Assembly (NCBI RefSeq): GCF_003952665.1
Contig: NZ_CP017946.1
Coordinates: forward strand, 124,001 to 188,000
Origin: Bosea sp. Tri-49
GTDB taxonomy: Bacteria; Pseudomonadota; Alphaproteobacteria; Rhizobiales; Beijerinckiaceae
Direction of reading: 5' to 3'
DNA: 64,000 nt
Below the pieces are notes generated by a model. It had not been told where the DNA came from and did not search any database. It worked only from the letters and a program-made list of their open reading frames with translations. Shown here piece by piece: positions 23,888 to 27,607 of the stretch. The position numbers and the translations under genes were made by a program. Position 1 is the first letter of the stretch, and each line of letters starts with the position of its first letter.

Positions 23888-24820
23888 ATGGATCACAGCT
23901 CTCCACTTCCGCCCTTGGACACGCTGCGCGCCTTCGAGGCGGCTGCCCGCTCCGGCAGTTTCTCGGCCGCGGCCGAGGCGTTGAACCTCACCCATGGCGC
24001 GATCTCTCGGCAGGTCGCCAAGCTTGAGCATTGGCTCGGCCTGCGCGTCTTCGAGCGCCAGGCGCGCGGCGTCGCGCTGACGCCAGAGGGGCAGCGCCTG
24101 TTCCAGCGCACGCAGGAGGCCTTCTCGGTCTTCGCCGACTCATCCGACCGCTGGAGCGAGCCGCGCGGGACGGCGGTGGTGCGCTTCAGCGCGACGCCTT
24201 CCGTCTGCTCGCTCTGGCTGATGCCGCGCTGGCAGCGCCTGGAAAGCGGCGATCCTACCGTGCGGATCATGCTGCAGGTCGACCATCGCAAGGTCGACCT
24301 TGAGGAGGAGGGCATCGACCTCGCCATTCGCTGCGGCCGCGGCGGCACGCCGGGGCGGGTCTCGGTGCAGCTCTTCGAGGAGTGGTGCTATCCCGTGGCC
24401 TCGCCCGAGCTGGCCAAGGCGATCGGCGAGGGCAGGCCGGAGCGCTTCCTCGACCAGCCGCTGATCCATGATTCGGACGCCGCCGGCTGGCGCGCCTGGT
24501 TCAATGCGCAGGGGCTCGACTTCCGGCCGCGCCAGCAGGACCGGCGCTTCGAGGACTACAATCTCGTGCTCGACGCTGCTGCGTCGGGGCTTGGCGTGGC
24601 GCTATCGCGCCCGCCTCTGGCGCAGGCGCAGGTCGATGCCGGGCGGGTCATCAGGGTCGATCAGCGCACGGCGCTCAATCCGGTCTCCTACTGGCTCGAC
24701 CGGCCGATGGGGCAGCCGCGCCCGGCAGCGGTGGCGCTGGCGAGCCGGATCGCGCATGAGGCCGGGCTGTCGGCGGGCAAGCTGGCGGGGTTCCTGCGGC
24801 TGGAGGCGAAAGCGGCTTAG
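23888..24820 (+). CDS. LysR-family regulator, GcvA-like
   Basis: 310 residues. The N-terminus LDTLRAFEAAARSGSFSAAA with LTHGAISRQVAKLE is the LysR helix-turn-helix of the GcvA subgroup, and the effector domain carries LEEEGIDLAIRCGRG, the subgroup's IR-x-G signature. ATG 23888 chosen; GTG 23882 would add two residues. Divergent from the EamA permease, which is the probable target. The last four bases overlap the convergent tyrA-like gene. Confidence 0.88.
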   Translation: MDHSSPLPPLDTLRAFEAAARSGSFSAAAEALNLTHGAISRQVAKLEHWLGLRVFERQARGVALTPEGQRLFQRTQEAFSVFADSSDRWSEPRGTAVVRFSATPSVCSLWLMPRWQRLESGDPTVRIMLQVDHRKVDLEEEGIDLAIRCGRGGTPGRVSVQLFEEWCYPVASPELAKAIGEGRPERFLDQPLIHDSDAAGWRAWFNAQGLDFRPRQQDRRFEDYNLVLDAAASGLGVALSRPPLAQAQVDAGRVIRVDQRTALNPVSYWLDRPMGQPRPAAVALASRIAHEAGLSAGKLAGFLRLEAKAA

Positions 24821-25617
24821 GAGACCGCGTCCGGCTGCAGCGCTTCTCGGGTTCCGTTTGCAGGTGACCGGTCCCGATCGAGATGCGCCCGCATCTCCTC
24901 GGCCAGGGCGAAGAAGCGGTCGCGTACCGGCCGCGCATGCGGGTTGGCCTGCTCGATGGCGAGGAAGACGCCGGGGCTGTCATGGCGCACCATCTCGGTC
25001 GCGCGCATCAGGAGGTCGAAGCTCGCCGTGGTCATCCGCCGCGGCAAGGGCTCCATCCGGACCAGGATCTTGGCGATGAGATGGGTCAGGCCCTGGACCA
25101 TCGCCGCCTCGCGGTCATGCGCCTCCGGCGTCGTCATGATGACCTTGAGGCGCAGCATCCGGCGCAGGAAGGCGGCGATGCGCCAGGCGCTGCGACCGCG
25201 AATCGGGCAGATCGCGATCTTAAGGCCGGCAATGCCGTCGCGCCCGCTCTGCGGGCCGAAGAGCGGGTGGGTGCCGACGATCTCGACGTCCTCGGGCAGC
25301 TGCGCCAGCATGGTCATGGCCGGGCCGATCTTGACCGAGCCGACATCGACGACGATCGCGCCGGCGCCCAGATGCGGCCGCAAGGTCGCGATCGCTTCCG
25401 AGAGCGCCGCGACCGGCACGGCGAGGATGACGATGTCGCAGGCGGCGATCTCGGCGGGATCGGCGGCGATGATGCCACCTGAGGTGGCATCTGCCGGCAG
25501 CGTCGGATCGAACGCCAACAGGCGGCAATGCGGCCTGAGATGACGGGCGATCAGGCGGCCGAAGGCGCCGAAGCCCATCAGGCCGATGGAGGGATTGGTG
25601 GTGTTGAGGGTATGCAT
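24817..25617 (-). CDS. Prephenate/arogenate dehydrogenase, TyrA-like
   Basis: 266 residues of the short TyrA type with no chorismate-mutase or ACT domain. An N-terminal NAD(P) Rossmann motif GLMGFGAFG is followed by DVGSVKIGP and the catalytic-loop signature VGTHPLFGPQSG. The enzyme oxidises prephenate or arogenate on the way to tyrosine; which of the two is not decidable. The upstream leader (25664-25793) carries a promoter-like site, a short peptide with two adjacent Tyr codons and competing hairpins, so tyrosine attenuation is likely. No other tyrosine-pathway gene is adjacent. Confidence 0.85.
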   Translation of the reverse strand: MHTLNTTNPSIGLMGFGAFGRLIARHLRPHCRLLAFDPTLPADATSGGIIAADPAEIAACDIVILAVPVAALSEAIATLRPHLGAGAIVVDVGSVKIGPAMTMLAQLPEDVEIVGTHPLFGPQSGRDGIAGLKIAICPIRGRSAWRIAAFLRRMLRLKVIMTTPEAHDREAAMVQGLTHLIAKILVRMEPLPRRMTTASFDLLMRATEMVRHDSPGVFLAIEQANPHARPVRDRFFALAEEMRAHLDRDRSPANGTREALQPDAVS

Positions 25618-25663
25618 CGCGTTTTCCTTGAGGAGGGCCGCGATGCCGGGTGACTGCCTGATT

Positions 25664-25686
25664 TCAACCGCCAGCGCGGCGGTTGA
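25664..25686 (-). promoter_or_regulatory. Attenuator hairpin upstream of tyrA
   Basis: Nine-base-pair perfect stem: TCAACCGCC (25664-25672) and GGCGGTTGA (25678-25686). The 25678-25683 part can instead pair with ACCGCC at 25701-25706, so two structures exclude each other. There is no T-run after the stem on the minus strand, which leaves open whether control is of transcription or translation. Confidence 0.5.
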
Positions 25687-25707
25687 GACATGAAAATGCC
25701 ACCGCCT

Positions 25708-25758
25708 CTATGAGGACGGGGCGTAATAGTTGCGGGCGAGCAGGCAGGCAAAGGTCAT
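25708..25758 (-). CDS. Candidate leaderless leader peptide (MTFACLLARNYYAPSS)
   Basis: Sixteen codons on the minus strand ending in TAG, with adjacent Tyr codons TAT TAC at 25723-25728, 12 bases before the stop. A TTGACA (25788-25793) and TTTATG (25765-25770), spaced by 17 bases, place the expected transcription start at this ATG. An in-frame ATG at 25767 would add three residues but overlaps the -10 site. Leaderless leader peptides of this sort are known for the trp attenuator of rhizobia. The peptide should sense tyrosyl-tRNA. Confidence 0.6.
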   Translation of the reverse strand: MTFACLLARNYYAPSS

Positions 25759-25764
25759 GGCGCG

Positions 25765-25793
25765 CATAAAGCGCGCGCCATGCAGGCTGTCAA
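25765..25793 (-). promoter_or_regulatory. Promoter of the tyrA leader
   Basis: A perfect -35 TTGACA (25788-25793), 17 bases, then TTTATG as a weak -10. It begins ten bases past the carA stop, so tyrA can be expressed separately from carA. Confidence 0.5.
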
Positions 25794-25802
25794 TGGCCGG
25801 GC

Positions 25803-27011
25803 TCAGGCCGCCTTCTTCGCCTTCTCGGCTTCCATCAGCTCGACGAAGCGGGCGAAGAGGTAGTGGCTGTCCTGCGGGCCGGGCGAGGCCTCGGGATGGT
25901 GCTGGACGCTGAAGGCCGGGCGGTCGGTCAGGGCGATGCCGCAGTTCGAGCCGTCGAAGAGCGAGACATGGGTCTCGGTCGCGTTGGCCGGCAGCGTCGC
26001 GGGATCGACGGCGAAGCCGTGGTTCATCGACACGATCTCGACCTTGCCGGTGGTCTTGTCCTGCACCGGATGATTGGCGCCGTGATGGCCCTGCTTCATC
26101 TTCAGGGTCTGGCCGCCGATGGCGAGCGCCAGCATCTGATGGCCAAGGCAAATGCCGAAGGTCGGGATATTCCTGTCCAGTAACTCCCTGATCACCGGCA
26201 CGGCATATTCGCCGGTTGCGGCCGGGTCACCCGGGCCGTTCGACAGGAAGACGCCGTCGGGATTGAGCGCGAGGATGTCCTTGGCTGATGCGGTCGAGGG
26301 CACGACCTCGACCTCGCAGCCGGCCTTGGCCAGCAGGCGCAGGATGTTGCGCTTGACGCCGTAGTCGATGGCGACGACGCGATGGCCCGCGCTCTCGCGC
26401 TTGCCGTAGCCACGCGGCCACTGCCAGGGCGTCTCGTCCCAGTCATAGCGCTGGGTTGCGGCGACGAGCGGCACGAGGTCGAGCCCGGCCATGTCGGGCA
26501 GGGCGGCGGCTTCCTGCTTGAGGGCCTCGATATCGAAATTGCTGGCCGGGTCATGGGCGATGACGGCGTTGGGCATGCCGTTCTCGCGGATCAGCGTGGT
26601 CAGCGCCCGCGTGTCGACGCCGCAGATGCCGACGATGTTGCGGGCCTTGAGCCAGGCATCGAGATGCTTGGCCGCGCGCCAGTTCGAGGGCTGCGTCACC
26701 TCGGCATGCAGCACGATGCCGCGCACGCCGGAGGAGGCAGCAGCGTTCACCGTCTCGGTGTCTTCCTCGTTGACGCCGACATTGCCGATATGCGGGAAGG
26801 TGAAGGTGATGATCTGCCCGGCATAGGACGGATCGGTCAGGATTTCCTGATAGCCGGTCATCGCCGTGTTGAAGCAGACCTCGCCGGGCGCCTGCGCGAT
26901 CGCGCCGAGGCCGAAGCCTTCGAGCACTGTACCGTCGGCCAGCACCAGCACGGCAGTCGCGCGTGGCTCGCTCCAGCCCTGGGAGGCGGGGTTTCCTTCG
27001 TGAGCGGTCAT
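25803..27011 (-). CDS. carA: Carbamoyl-phosphate synthase, small subunit
   Basis: 402 residues, the glutamine amidotransferase half that releases ammonia for CarB. The N-terminal CarA domain (GFGLGAIAQAPGEVCFNTAM) is followed by a class I GATase with the nucleophile Cys288 in FGICLGHQM and the His372/Glu374 pair in HHPEAS. Normal length. It is divergent from the yqeY-type gene. The large subunit lies 16.7 kb away on the same strand. Confidence 0.96.
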   Translation of the reverse strand: MTAHEGNPASQGWSEPRATAVLVLADGTVLEGFGLGAIAQAPGEVCFNTAMTGYQEILTDPSYAGQIITFTFPHIGNVGVNEEDTETVNAAASSGVRGIVLHAEVTQPSNWRAAKHLDAWLKARNIVGICGVDTRALTTLIRENGMPNAVIAHDPASNFDIEALKQEAAALPDMAGLDLVPLVAATQRYDWDETPWQWPRGYGKRESAGHRVVAIDYGVKRNILRLLAKAGCEVEVVPSTASAKDILALNPDGVFLSNGPGDPAATGEYAVPVIRELLDRNIPTFGICLGHQMLALAIGGQTLKMKQGHHGANHPVQDKTTGKVEIVSMNHGFAVDPATLPANATETHVSLFDGSNCGIALTDRPAFSVQHHPEASPGPQDSHYLFARFVELMEAEKAKKAA

Positions 27012-27145
27012 GTCTATGTCTCGTCCAGGCCGCTGGAAGCTGCGGCAAGCGTGAAGGCTGCGCGCGGGTGGCGCTGCCGGTCTGGAGCGCGAGCCTTAAT
27101 CAGGCGCCTGCGCCCCGTCAATGAATGAAGAAGGTTTGCACCATC

Positions 27146-27607
27146 ATGTCCAACCTGCGTGAGCAGTTCACTGCCGACCTCAAGACCGCGATGAAGGCCG
27201 GCGAAAAAGGCAAGGTCGCTGCCATCCGCCTGATCCAGGCGGCGCTGAAGGACAAGGACATCGAGGCGCGCGGCGCCGGCAAGGGAGAGGCCACGGCCGA
27301 CGAGATCCTCGCCCTGCTGCAGAAGATGATCAAGCAGCGCCAGGAATCGATCGCGATCTATGACGCCAACGGCCGGCCCGAGCTCGCTGACGGCGAGCGC
27401 GCCGAGGTCGCGGTGATCTCCGCCTATCTGCCCAAGCAGATGAGCGACGAGGAGATCAAGGCGGCGATCGAGGACGTCATCGCCGAAACCGGCGCCTCGG
27501 CTGTCAAGGACATGGGCAAGGTCATCGGCGCATTGCGCGGCGCCTATGCCGGCCAGATGGACTTCGCCAAGGTCTCGCCTATGGTAAAGCAGTTGCTGGG
27601 CGGCTGA
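27146..27607 (+). CDS. GatB/YqeY-domain protein
   Basis: 153 residues of the YqeY family (LREQFTADLKTAMKAGEKGK at the start, AYLPKQMSDEEIKAAIEDVI late). The domain resembles the tRNA-binding tail of GatB, but stand-alone members have no proven role. Start MSNLREQF at ATG 27146 matches the family; an upstream ATG at 27125 would add seven residues. Divergent from carA, an arrangement common in the order. Confidence 0.9.
   Translation: MSNLREQFTADLKTAMKAGEKGKVAAIRLIQAALKDKDIEARGAGKGEATADEILALLQKMIKQRQESIAIYDANGRPELADGERAEVAVISAYLPKQMSDEEIKAAIEDVIAETGASAVKDMGKVIGALRGAYAGQMDFAKVSPMVKQLLGG

Follow-up and report, generated by a model that had tools for sequence, protein, structure and literature searches.

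The tyrA gene examined here lies on the minus strand of a 64,000-nucleotide stretch of Bosea sp. Tri-49 DNA (NZ_CP017946.1, positions 124,001 to 188,000), which we call the window and number from its first letter. The gene is preceded by a short leader open reading frame (ORF), and carA is the gene 5′ of this leader. The promoter, leader and gene are arranged as follows.

25788..25793, minus strand: −35 box TTGACA, read from the sequence; TTGAC is kept in 96 of 96 distinct leaders
25765..25770, minus strand: putative −10 box TTTATG; three of six bases match TATAAT
25708..25758, minus strand: leader ORF MTFACLLARNYYAPSS, 16 codons with a TAG stop at 25710-25708, probably leaderless; assigned from sequence and conservation
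25723..25728, minus strand: neighbouring Tyr codons TAT TAC, where sensing presumably takes place, 12 bases 5′ of the leader stop
24817..25617, minus strand: accessory tyrA of the prephenate/arogenate dehydrogenase type, 266 amino acids, the putative regulated gene; matches PF02153 and PF20463

An earlier note on this DNA had described TTGACA, 17 bases, TTTATG and then an ATG, and each element is present on the minus strand exactly to the base, with six bases separating TTTATG from the leader ATG (25758). The 16-codon peptide with adjacent Tyr codons 12 bases before its stop was likewise found as described, as were GGCGGT (25706-25701), TCAACCGCC (25686-25678) and GGCGGTTGA (25672-25664) on the same strand, and the observation is therefore confirmed. 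Most Bosea loci carry −10 sequences resembling TTTAAG, TTTATG or TCTAAG, and the element is variable outside this genus. A consensus scan of positions 25500-27200 listed no promoter and no terminator. Because the promoter is poor relative to the consensus and no terminator was listed, conservation had to decide. A perfect 10-bp palindrome (CATGGCGCGC/GCGCGCCATG, 25756-25782) that runs across the −10 box could have been taken for an operator or for the terminator of carA, but arms of at least 7 occur in just 10 of 96 relatives (versus 1.5% of shuffles), so this palindrome is no general part of the leader.

The gene that the earlier note had called tyrA-like does carry the PDH_N and PDH_C domains (PF02153 and PF20463; Pfam), and matches of its product to the NCBIfam prephenate dehydrogenase models fall below their cut-offs. 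A profile search places three structures of prephenate dehydrogenase 1 (5t9f, 5t95 and 5t9e), which we take to be plant enzymes, nearest to this protein at E values of about 1e-33, and the next structure, 4wji, follows well behind (E 1.7e-20). The same genome holds an extra TyrA-type gene elsewhere, whose product is 36% identical to the accessory TyrA over part of its length. The distribution of the accessory gene is patchy, because only 8 of 289 class genomes yield a match at E 1e-40 in a class-wide protein search.

Conservation of the leader

Among 61 genomes of the genus Bosea, the leader is present at 48 of 48 tyrA orthologues (best E below 1e-50), and inspection by eye indicates that it is kept also at Bosea loci where a gene other than carA lies 5′ of it. 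Named genomes yielded 573 tyrA relatives, of which the best 80 were kept. The leader is present at 77 of these, and its peptide has Tyr-Tyr in 68, a single Tyr in 8 and no Tyr in 1 (L158); the ORF finder detected none at the other three of these 80 (L112, L152 and L157). The genera represented include Bosea, Methylobacterium, Methylorubrum, Thalassospira, Brucella-named species, Hyphomicrobium, Chelatococcus, Roseomonas, Jhaorihella and Microvirga, among others, together with one record titled Solirubrobacterales.

An order-wide search returned 29 loci, and the leader was sought at the seven best only (L032-L038). The same finder detects it at L032, L033 and L035, a fourth leader (L175, genome G177) was detected by an RNA model, and none was found at L036-L038, where TyrA is 32–37% identical. 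At the G177 locus (L175/L034), which has the leader, the tyrA match starts late, and a TGA lies inside the matched stretch according to one search and not according to another. Four of the eight class genomes with a tyrA match at E 1e-40 carry the leader (the Bosea genome itself, G177, G474 and G231), and the ORF finder detects none at L161, L163, L165 and L166 in the remaining four. The leader is thus often missing before distant tyrA homologues, where absence is a score that very different peptides would also receive, as the ORF filters required a Tyr (for L158, His-Cys) near the end of the peptide.

Since the two genome collections share entries, the total of 130 leader records represents 96 distinct sequences. 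TTGAC is located 34–39 nt 5′ of the leader ATG in 96 of these 96, and this spacing indicates that the peptide is probably leaderless, with the predicted transcript start on the ATG or immediately beside it. The earlier note had proposed to check in relatives whether the Tyr codons are conserved, and they are well kept: 87 distinct leaders have Tyr-Tyr, 8 have one Tyr and 1 has none. Counted from the peptide end, residue −6 is Tyr in 95 of 96 and residue −5 in 87 of 96, although a Tyr six codons from the end is partly built in by a filter that allowed 5–7. The Tyr pair is kept while the N-terminal half of the peptide varies. A C-terminal YY-A-P is well conserved, and the residues after YY differ widely (APSS, APLP, PPST, GPAT, ALFS, RLSS and SLTT). 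The tyrA start lies 87–110 nt 3′ of the leader stop in the 130 records, a distance that is partly built in because starts were sought within an interval after the stop. A simple pattern search finds a Shine-Dalgarno (SD)-like motif in 76 of 96 leaders and none in the other 20.

The second Tyr codon is replaced by an Arg codon at five Methylobacterium/Methylorubrum loci (L117, L134, L147, L149 and L151), and both Tyr codons are gone in Microvirga L158. Taken as a whole, this conservation excludes a chance origin of the leader, and as judged by comparison of the sequences the leader is almost certainly real and conserved.

Covarying helices between the leader and tyrA

Alignment of 44 representatives, and then of 27 at under 75% identity, defined six RNA segments that extend from the end of the leader ORF to the tyrA start codon.

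25712..25722, minus strand: segment 1, pairs with segment 2 when ribosome-free; weak covariation with 2
25698..25708, minus strand: segment 2, GAGGCGGTGGC, directly 3′ of the leader stop, can pair with segment 3; 2:3 is conserved
25678..25686, minus strand: segment 3, TCAACCGCC; 3:4 covaries
25664..25680, minus strand: segment 4, GCCGCGCTGGCGGTTGA, loop side and 3′ arm of the hairpin; pairs with segment 3 (via 25664-25672) or segment 5
25637..25654, minus strand: segment 5, pairs with segment 4 or 6; 4:5 and 5:6 covariation
25614..25629, minus strand: segment 6, AAGGA (SD) and CGCGATGC, including the tyrA start codon (25617-25615); 5:6 covaries

In the window, 4:5 is exemplified by CGCGGC (25642-25637) with GCCGCG (25680-25675), the part of segment 5 that faces segment 6 is GCATCGCG (25646-25639), and folding predicts a stem over the tyrA start codon. 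Set A3 comprises 44 of 49 representatives, leaving out L079 and L029 (near copies) and L148, L164 and L035 (hard to align); set A4 comprises 41 of 49, leaving out L079, L092, L108, L111, L130, L141, L151 and L029; and set A2 comprises 13 TyrA proteins.

We used a swap test, in which the pairing energy of a sequence's own two segments is compared with that obtained using the segments of other sequences, on 27 of the 130 records at under 75% identity. Three helices score strongly (3:4, z −6.6; 4:5, z −5.1; 5:6, z −6.7), each with 0 of 5,000 permutations as good, on permutations that take no account of relatedness. Helix 1:2 exhibits weak covariation (z −1.97; 134 of 5,000 permutations), 2:3 exhibits none in these 27 sequences (z +0.42), and five control combinations range from z −0.6 to +2.8.

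Counts of alignment cells in which both partners of a pair have changed agree with this pattern among the 44 sequences: 11 for 3:4 versus 4.3 in shuffles, 35 for 4:5 versus 8.8 and 18 for 5:6 versus 3.7, each with 0 of 500 shuffles reaching the count, where the structures were voted from the same sequences and the shuffles, too, ignore relatedness. Other measures were reached by shuffles, namely the number of pairs with a double change (3:4, 37 of 500; 4:5, 9 of 500) and the number of pair types (3:4, 107 of 500; 4:5, 86 of 500; 5:6, 41 of 500). For 2:3, a single doubly changed cell is seen versus 1.1 in shuffles, yet the helix is conserved, with 80% of cells paired versus 26–50% when the segments are slid against one another. 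Of the two competing stems that the earlier note had drawn, the hairpin 3:4 therefore exhibits the compensatory change looked for in relatives, whereas its competitor 2:3 is conserved but without such change. The element also continues past the 9-bp hairpin, beyond what that note had drawn, since the further helices 4:5 and 5:6 reach the tyrA start.

The exchanges can be followed by eye. The 4:5 pairing GCCGCG:CGCGGC of Bosea reads GCUGCG:CGCAGC in Thalassospira, and Methylobacterium has GUCGGCGG:CCGCCGAC for 4:5 and GACCUCG:CGAGGUC for 5:6, where CGAGGUC contains the ribosome-binding site. Helix 5:6 covers the SD sequence and/or the AUG in 27 of 27 representatives, the search having been made in that region. 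Helices 4:5 and 5:6 overlap by 5–12 nt in 27 of 27 as well and are thus mutually exclusive. Comparison of the leaders therefore places a set of mutually exclusive predicted helices after the Tyr codons, in which 4:5 overlaps both 3:4 and 5:6 and all three covary. The helices are kept in L117 and L158, the two loci with altered Tyr codons that were examined.

A tyrosine attenuator model and its alternatives

The comparison reveals the peptide with its Tyr codons, the promoter spacing, the helices 3:4, 4:5 and 5:6, and the overlap of 4:5 with both of the others. From these components we infer a relay in which transcription would start on, or no more than a few bases from, the ATG that opens the 16-codon, two-Tyr peptide, and in which the position of the ribosome would determine the helices that follow. 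When charged tRNA-Tyr is plentiful, the ribosome would reach the stop and cover segment 2, such that 3:4 and 5:6 form and the tyrA SD sequence and start codon are hidden (OFF). When the peptide is not translated, 1:2 would form, again allowing 3:4 and 5:6 (OFF). A shortage of charged tRNA-Tyr would make the ribosome wait at the Tyr codons 12 nt 5′ of the stop, where it covers segment 1; 2:3 could then form, leaving segment 4 free to pair with 5 and segment 6 open (ON).

Tyrosine attenuation is very probably the function of this leader, and the interpretation of the earlier note as a tyrosine attenuator is supported. We consider a leaderless, Tyr-responsive leader-peptide attenuator that acts on tyrA translation through the six-segment relay to be the best explanation, and a likely one. 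The earlier note had left the mechanism as either translational or Rho-linked; the exclusion between 4:5 and 5:6 ties the hairpin to the tyrA start and so favours the translational option. Its remark that no T-run follows the hairpin holds generally, since TTTT occurs near the 3:4 stem in only 5 of 96 distinct tyrA leaders, and the lack of a T-run in most of them fits control of translation. An intrinsic terminator (GC stem plus T-run), as in attenuators of the trpL type that act on transcription, was not found before tyrA. Against the proposed mechanism stand L158, which keeps the helices without a Tyr codon, and the eight leaders with a single Tyr. The lack of covariation in 2:3, the slight covariation of 1:2, the measures that shuffles reached, the 20 of 96 leaders with no SD-like motif and the distant tyrA homologues with no leader count against it as well.

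Folding computations agree with the hairpin and mostly not with a switch at equilibrium. In a comparison with 200 shuffles, an 81-nt stretch around 3:4 outperforms 199 (z −3.58), and the 141-nt leader as a whole stands out less (z −2.16, with 5 of 200 shuffles equally good). The fold of the window sequence also pairs the peptide codons CUGCCUG with CAGGCAG 3′ of the hairpin. At equilibrium, the tyrA start has nearly the same mean accessibility whether the RNA is free of ribosomes (0.33), has a ribosome at the stop (0.33) or has a stalled ribosome (0.34). Helix 4:5 forms in some ribosome state in few sequences (L121, L140, L156 and L164), and in L121 it does so in the wrong states, with a shift opposite to the model. 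Holding 2:3 opens the tyrA start by more than 0.1 in just 2 of 27 sequences, and raises those with at least six expected 4:5 pairs from 2 of 27 when free to 10 of 27. The 4:5 state is worse than the 3:4 state by a mean of 7.3 kcal/mol with a stalled ribosome, 8.7 at the stop and 9.7 with no ribosome, a gap that changes in the direction the model needs but by a small amount, and stalled beats stop in only 15 of 27. When the RNA ends at segment 5, however, 4:5 dominates in 22 of 27 sequences with 2:3 held, compared with 13 of 27 at the stop, 7 of 27 when stalled with nothing held, and 4 of 27 for the full RNA with 2:3 held.

Equilibrium folding thus failed as proof of switching, and a start that is mostly closed even with a stalled ribosome counts against the claim. 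This result implies that the switch, if the model is correct, must be kinetic and would depend on the order of folding during transcription.

An unlikely alternative is that the same Tyr leader acts on transcription, either because 3:4 halts RNA polymerase without a T-run or because untranslated RNA past the stop recruits Rho. In its favour, the related leaders before other genes described below are mostly T-rich after the corresponding hairpin, the tail of L035 is rich in U, and the trpL of Sinorhizobium meliloti, also leaderless, is presented in the available part of PMC7298713 as a transcription attenuator. The scarcity of TTTT near 3:4 and the lack of any terminator listed in the window argue against this possibility, which also leaves unexplained why covarying 4:5 and 5:6 helices extend to the tyrA start.

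It is very improbable that the RNA is a mere structured 5′ untranslated region that confers stability or constitutively low translation with no response to tyrosine. Such a role would accommodate the closed state predicted for most ribosome positions and the retention of helices in L158 without Tyr; it would not account for the Tyr that 95 of 96 distinct leaders keep at residue −6 beside a variable first half, for covarying helices that exclude each other, or for related leaders that fit their genes. A nascent-chain arrest peptide (YYAPSS and similar) that stalls the ribosome in response to a signal other than tyrosine is similarly improbable: the C-terminal YY-A-P is well conserved, but the wide variation in the residues that follow YY would be expected if selection preserved the pairing of segment 1 in the RNA and not the peptide, and the aromatic residue of the related leaders matches the gene they precede.

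Related leaders and known attenuators

A covariance model of the promoter, leader and hairpin (R1) yields one strong match in the Bosea genome, the tyrA leader itself (E 2.5e-26; next match 0.04). The model matches 17 of 299 phylum genomes at E 0.001 and 26 of 385 class genomes at E 0.01, where matches above about E 0.001 appeared chance-like in a reading that covered part of the E 0.001–0.01 range. A second model (R2) was built from 13 related leaders; at E 1e-4 it matches 16 of 385 class genomes, a count that takes in the sources of the model.

Several of these leaders precede other genes. Tyr leaders of the same layout are located before tyrS at L183 (named by reading) and at L209 and L210 (TIGR00234), and one before a different TyrA (NF005694) at L182 has a leader ORF that starts with GTG and lacks a stop at the usual place. 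In alphaproteobacteria, GNAT acetyltransferase genes, a family checked for L178 and L212, are preceded by leaders of this layout with a terminator-like hairpin and either Trp-Tyr-Phe (L178-L181 and L187) or Tyr-Phe-Trp (L212). R2 adds a Trp-Trp leader before trpS (L223) and aromatic-rich leaders (MITVATSYFWYFSYDS... and MINSFAAFWFYFSYPG...) before DAHP synthase (L226 and L228), all with T-rich terminators and with genes named by reading. A T-rich tail follows the hairpin in most of the related leaders and is missing in L208, L209 and L210; the tyrA type therefore differs from most of them in output.

Further leaders were noted beside these. L208 resembles the tyrS-type leaders, the genome that carries L210 does not belong to the class, and L207 resembles the GNAT-type leaders (L178-L181, L187 and L212, the last from position 1501). 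By reading, aromatic leaders (WYF, YYYWF and YF) that R2 also adds precede small free-standing S4-domain-like proteins at L217, L220, L224 and L225, and a Tyr-Tyr leader with a T-run hairpin precedes a SnoaL-like protein at L205.

On balance, we lean towards a joint reading in which a Tyr-specific, leaderless and purely translational attenuator, with a helix chain from 1:2 to 5:6, travels with accessory tyrA across Alphaproteobacteria and is one member of a broader group, so far undescribed, of aromatic leader peptides that are leaderless and mostly end in a terminator, located before tyrS, trpS, DAHP synthase, GNAT and S4-domain genes.

Leader-peptide attenuators are textbook regulators for several amino acids, and the leader ORFs of Escherichia coli pheL, trpL and pheST carry a Shine-Dalgarno sequence. 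Antibiotic-resistance genes of Gram-positive bacteria can be under translational attenuation, in which stalling within the leader ORF causes a rearrangement of the hairpins that otherwise mask the ribosome-binding site of the next gene. A 2004 survey of proteobacterial attenuators by Vitreschak et al., cited in PMC10117765, is not known to include a Tyr case. Among the matches listed in a search of open full-text literature, none describes a Tyr-responsive leader peptide for tyrA or tyrS. Rfam reports one tRNA only in the whole window at gathering scores, no match in 25500-25850 at E values up to 1, and no match (T-box included) at 12 relative loci at gathering scores.

The closest counterpart is the leaderless trp attenuator trpL/rnTrpL of S. 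meliloti (PMC7298713 and PMC10117765, in the parts available), which is likewise alphaproteobacterial and combines a very short ORF carrying cognate codons with mutually exclusive RNA structures. According to these same parts, its RNA begins at the ORF ATG, the position at which we predict the RNA of the tyrA leader to start. The S. meliloti system has Trp codons, trpE(G) and a transcription terminator in those accounts, whereas the tyrA leader has Tyr codons, no T-run in most cases and a chain of conserved helices that reaches the start codon. The AroR leader peptide of Corynebacterium glutamicum likewise contains aromatic codons (Phe-Tyr-Phe) and precedes a gene of aromatic biosynthesis, aroF, but the accessible portion of a review (PMC11802643) describes it as transcriptional and as responding to Phe and not Tyr, unlike our proposal. 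In E. coli pheL, trpL and pheST, as summarized in that portion of PMC11802643, a ribosome waiting at cognate codons similarly selects among alternative hairpins, although these systems use transcription termination.

Gram-positive translational attenuators of antibiotic resistance are mentioned in the available text of PMC7298713; such attenuators sense a drug, whereas the tyrA leader would respond to charged tRNA-Tyr and control a biosynthetic gene. T-boxes are the RNA-level tyrosine control named in the available text of a comparative survey (PMC1262725), which also describes an actinobacterial ileS translational T-box that hides the Shine-Dalgarno box. The T-boxes of Gram-positive tyrosine genes and of actinobacterial ileS share with our proposal an RNA-level response to charged tRNA, but as presented there they bind tRNA directly and have no leader peptide, and the tyrA leader has no Rfam match.

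Within ribosome-mediated attenuation, what would be new is the proposed tyrosine control by a leader peptide, for which we found no earlier description. Because the helix relay exhibits clear covariation, as in the 35 double-change cells of 4:5, each step predicts a specific mutant. Leaderless attenuators are easily overlooked by annotation, since their ORFs are very short and have no ribosome-binding site, and Alphaproteobacteria may hold a larger repertoire of them, as suggested by the related leaders that precede other aromatic genes.
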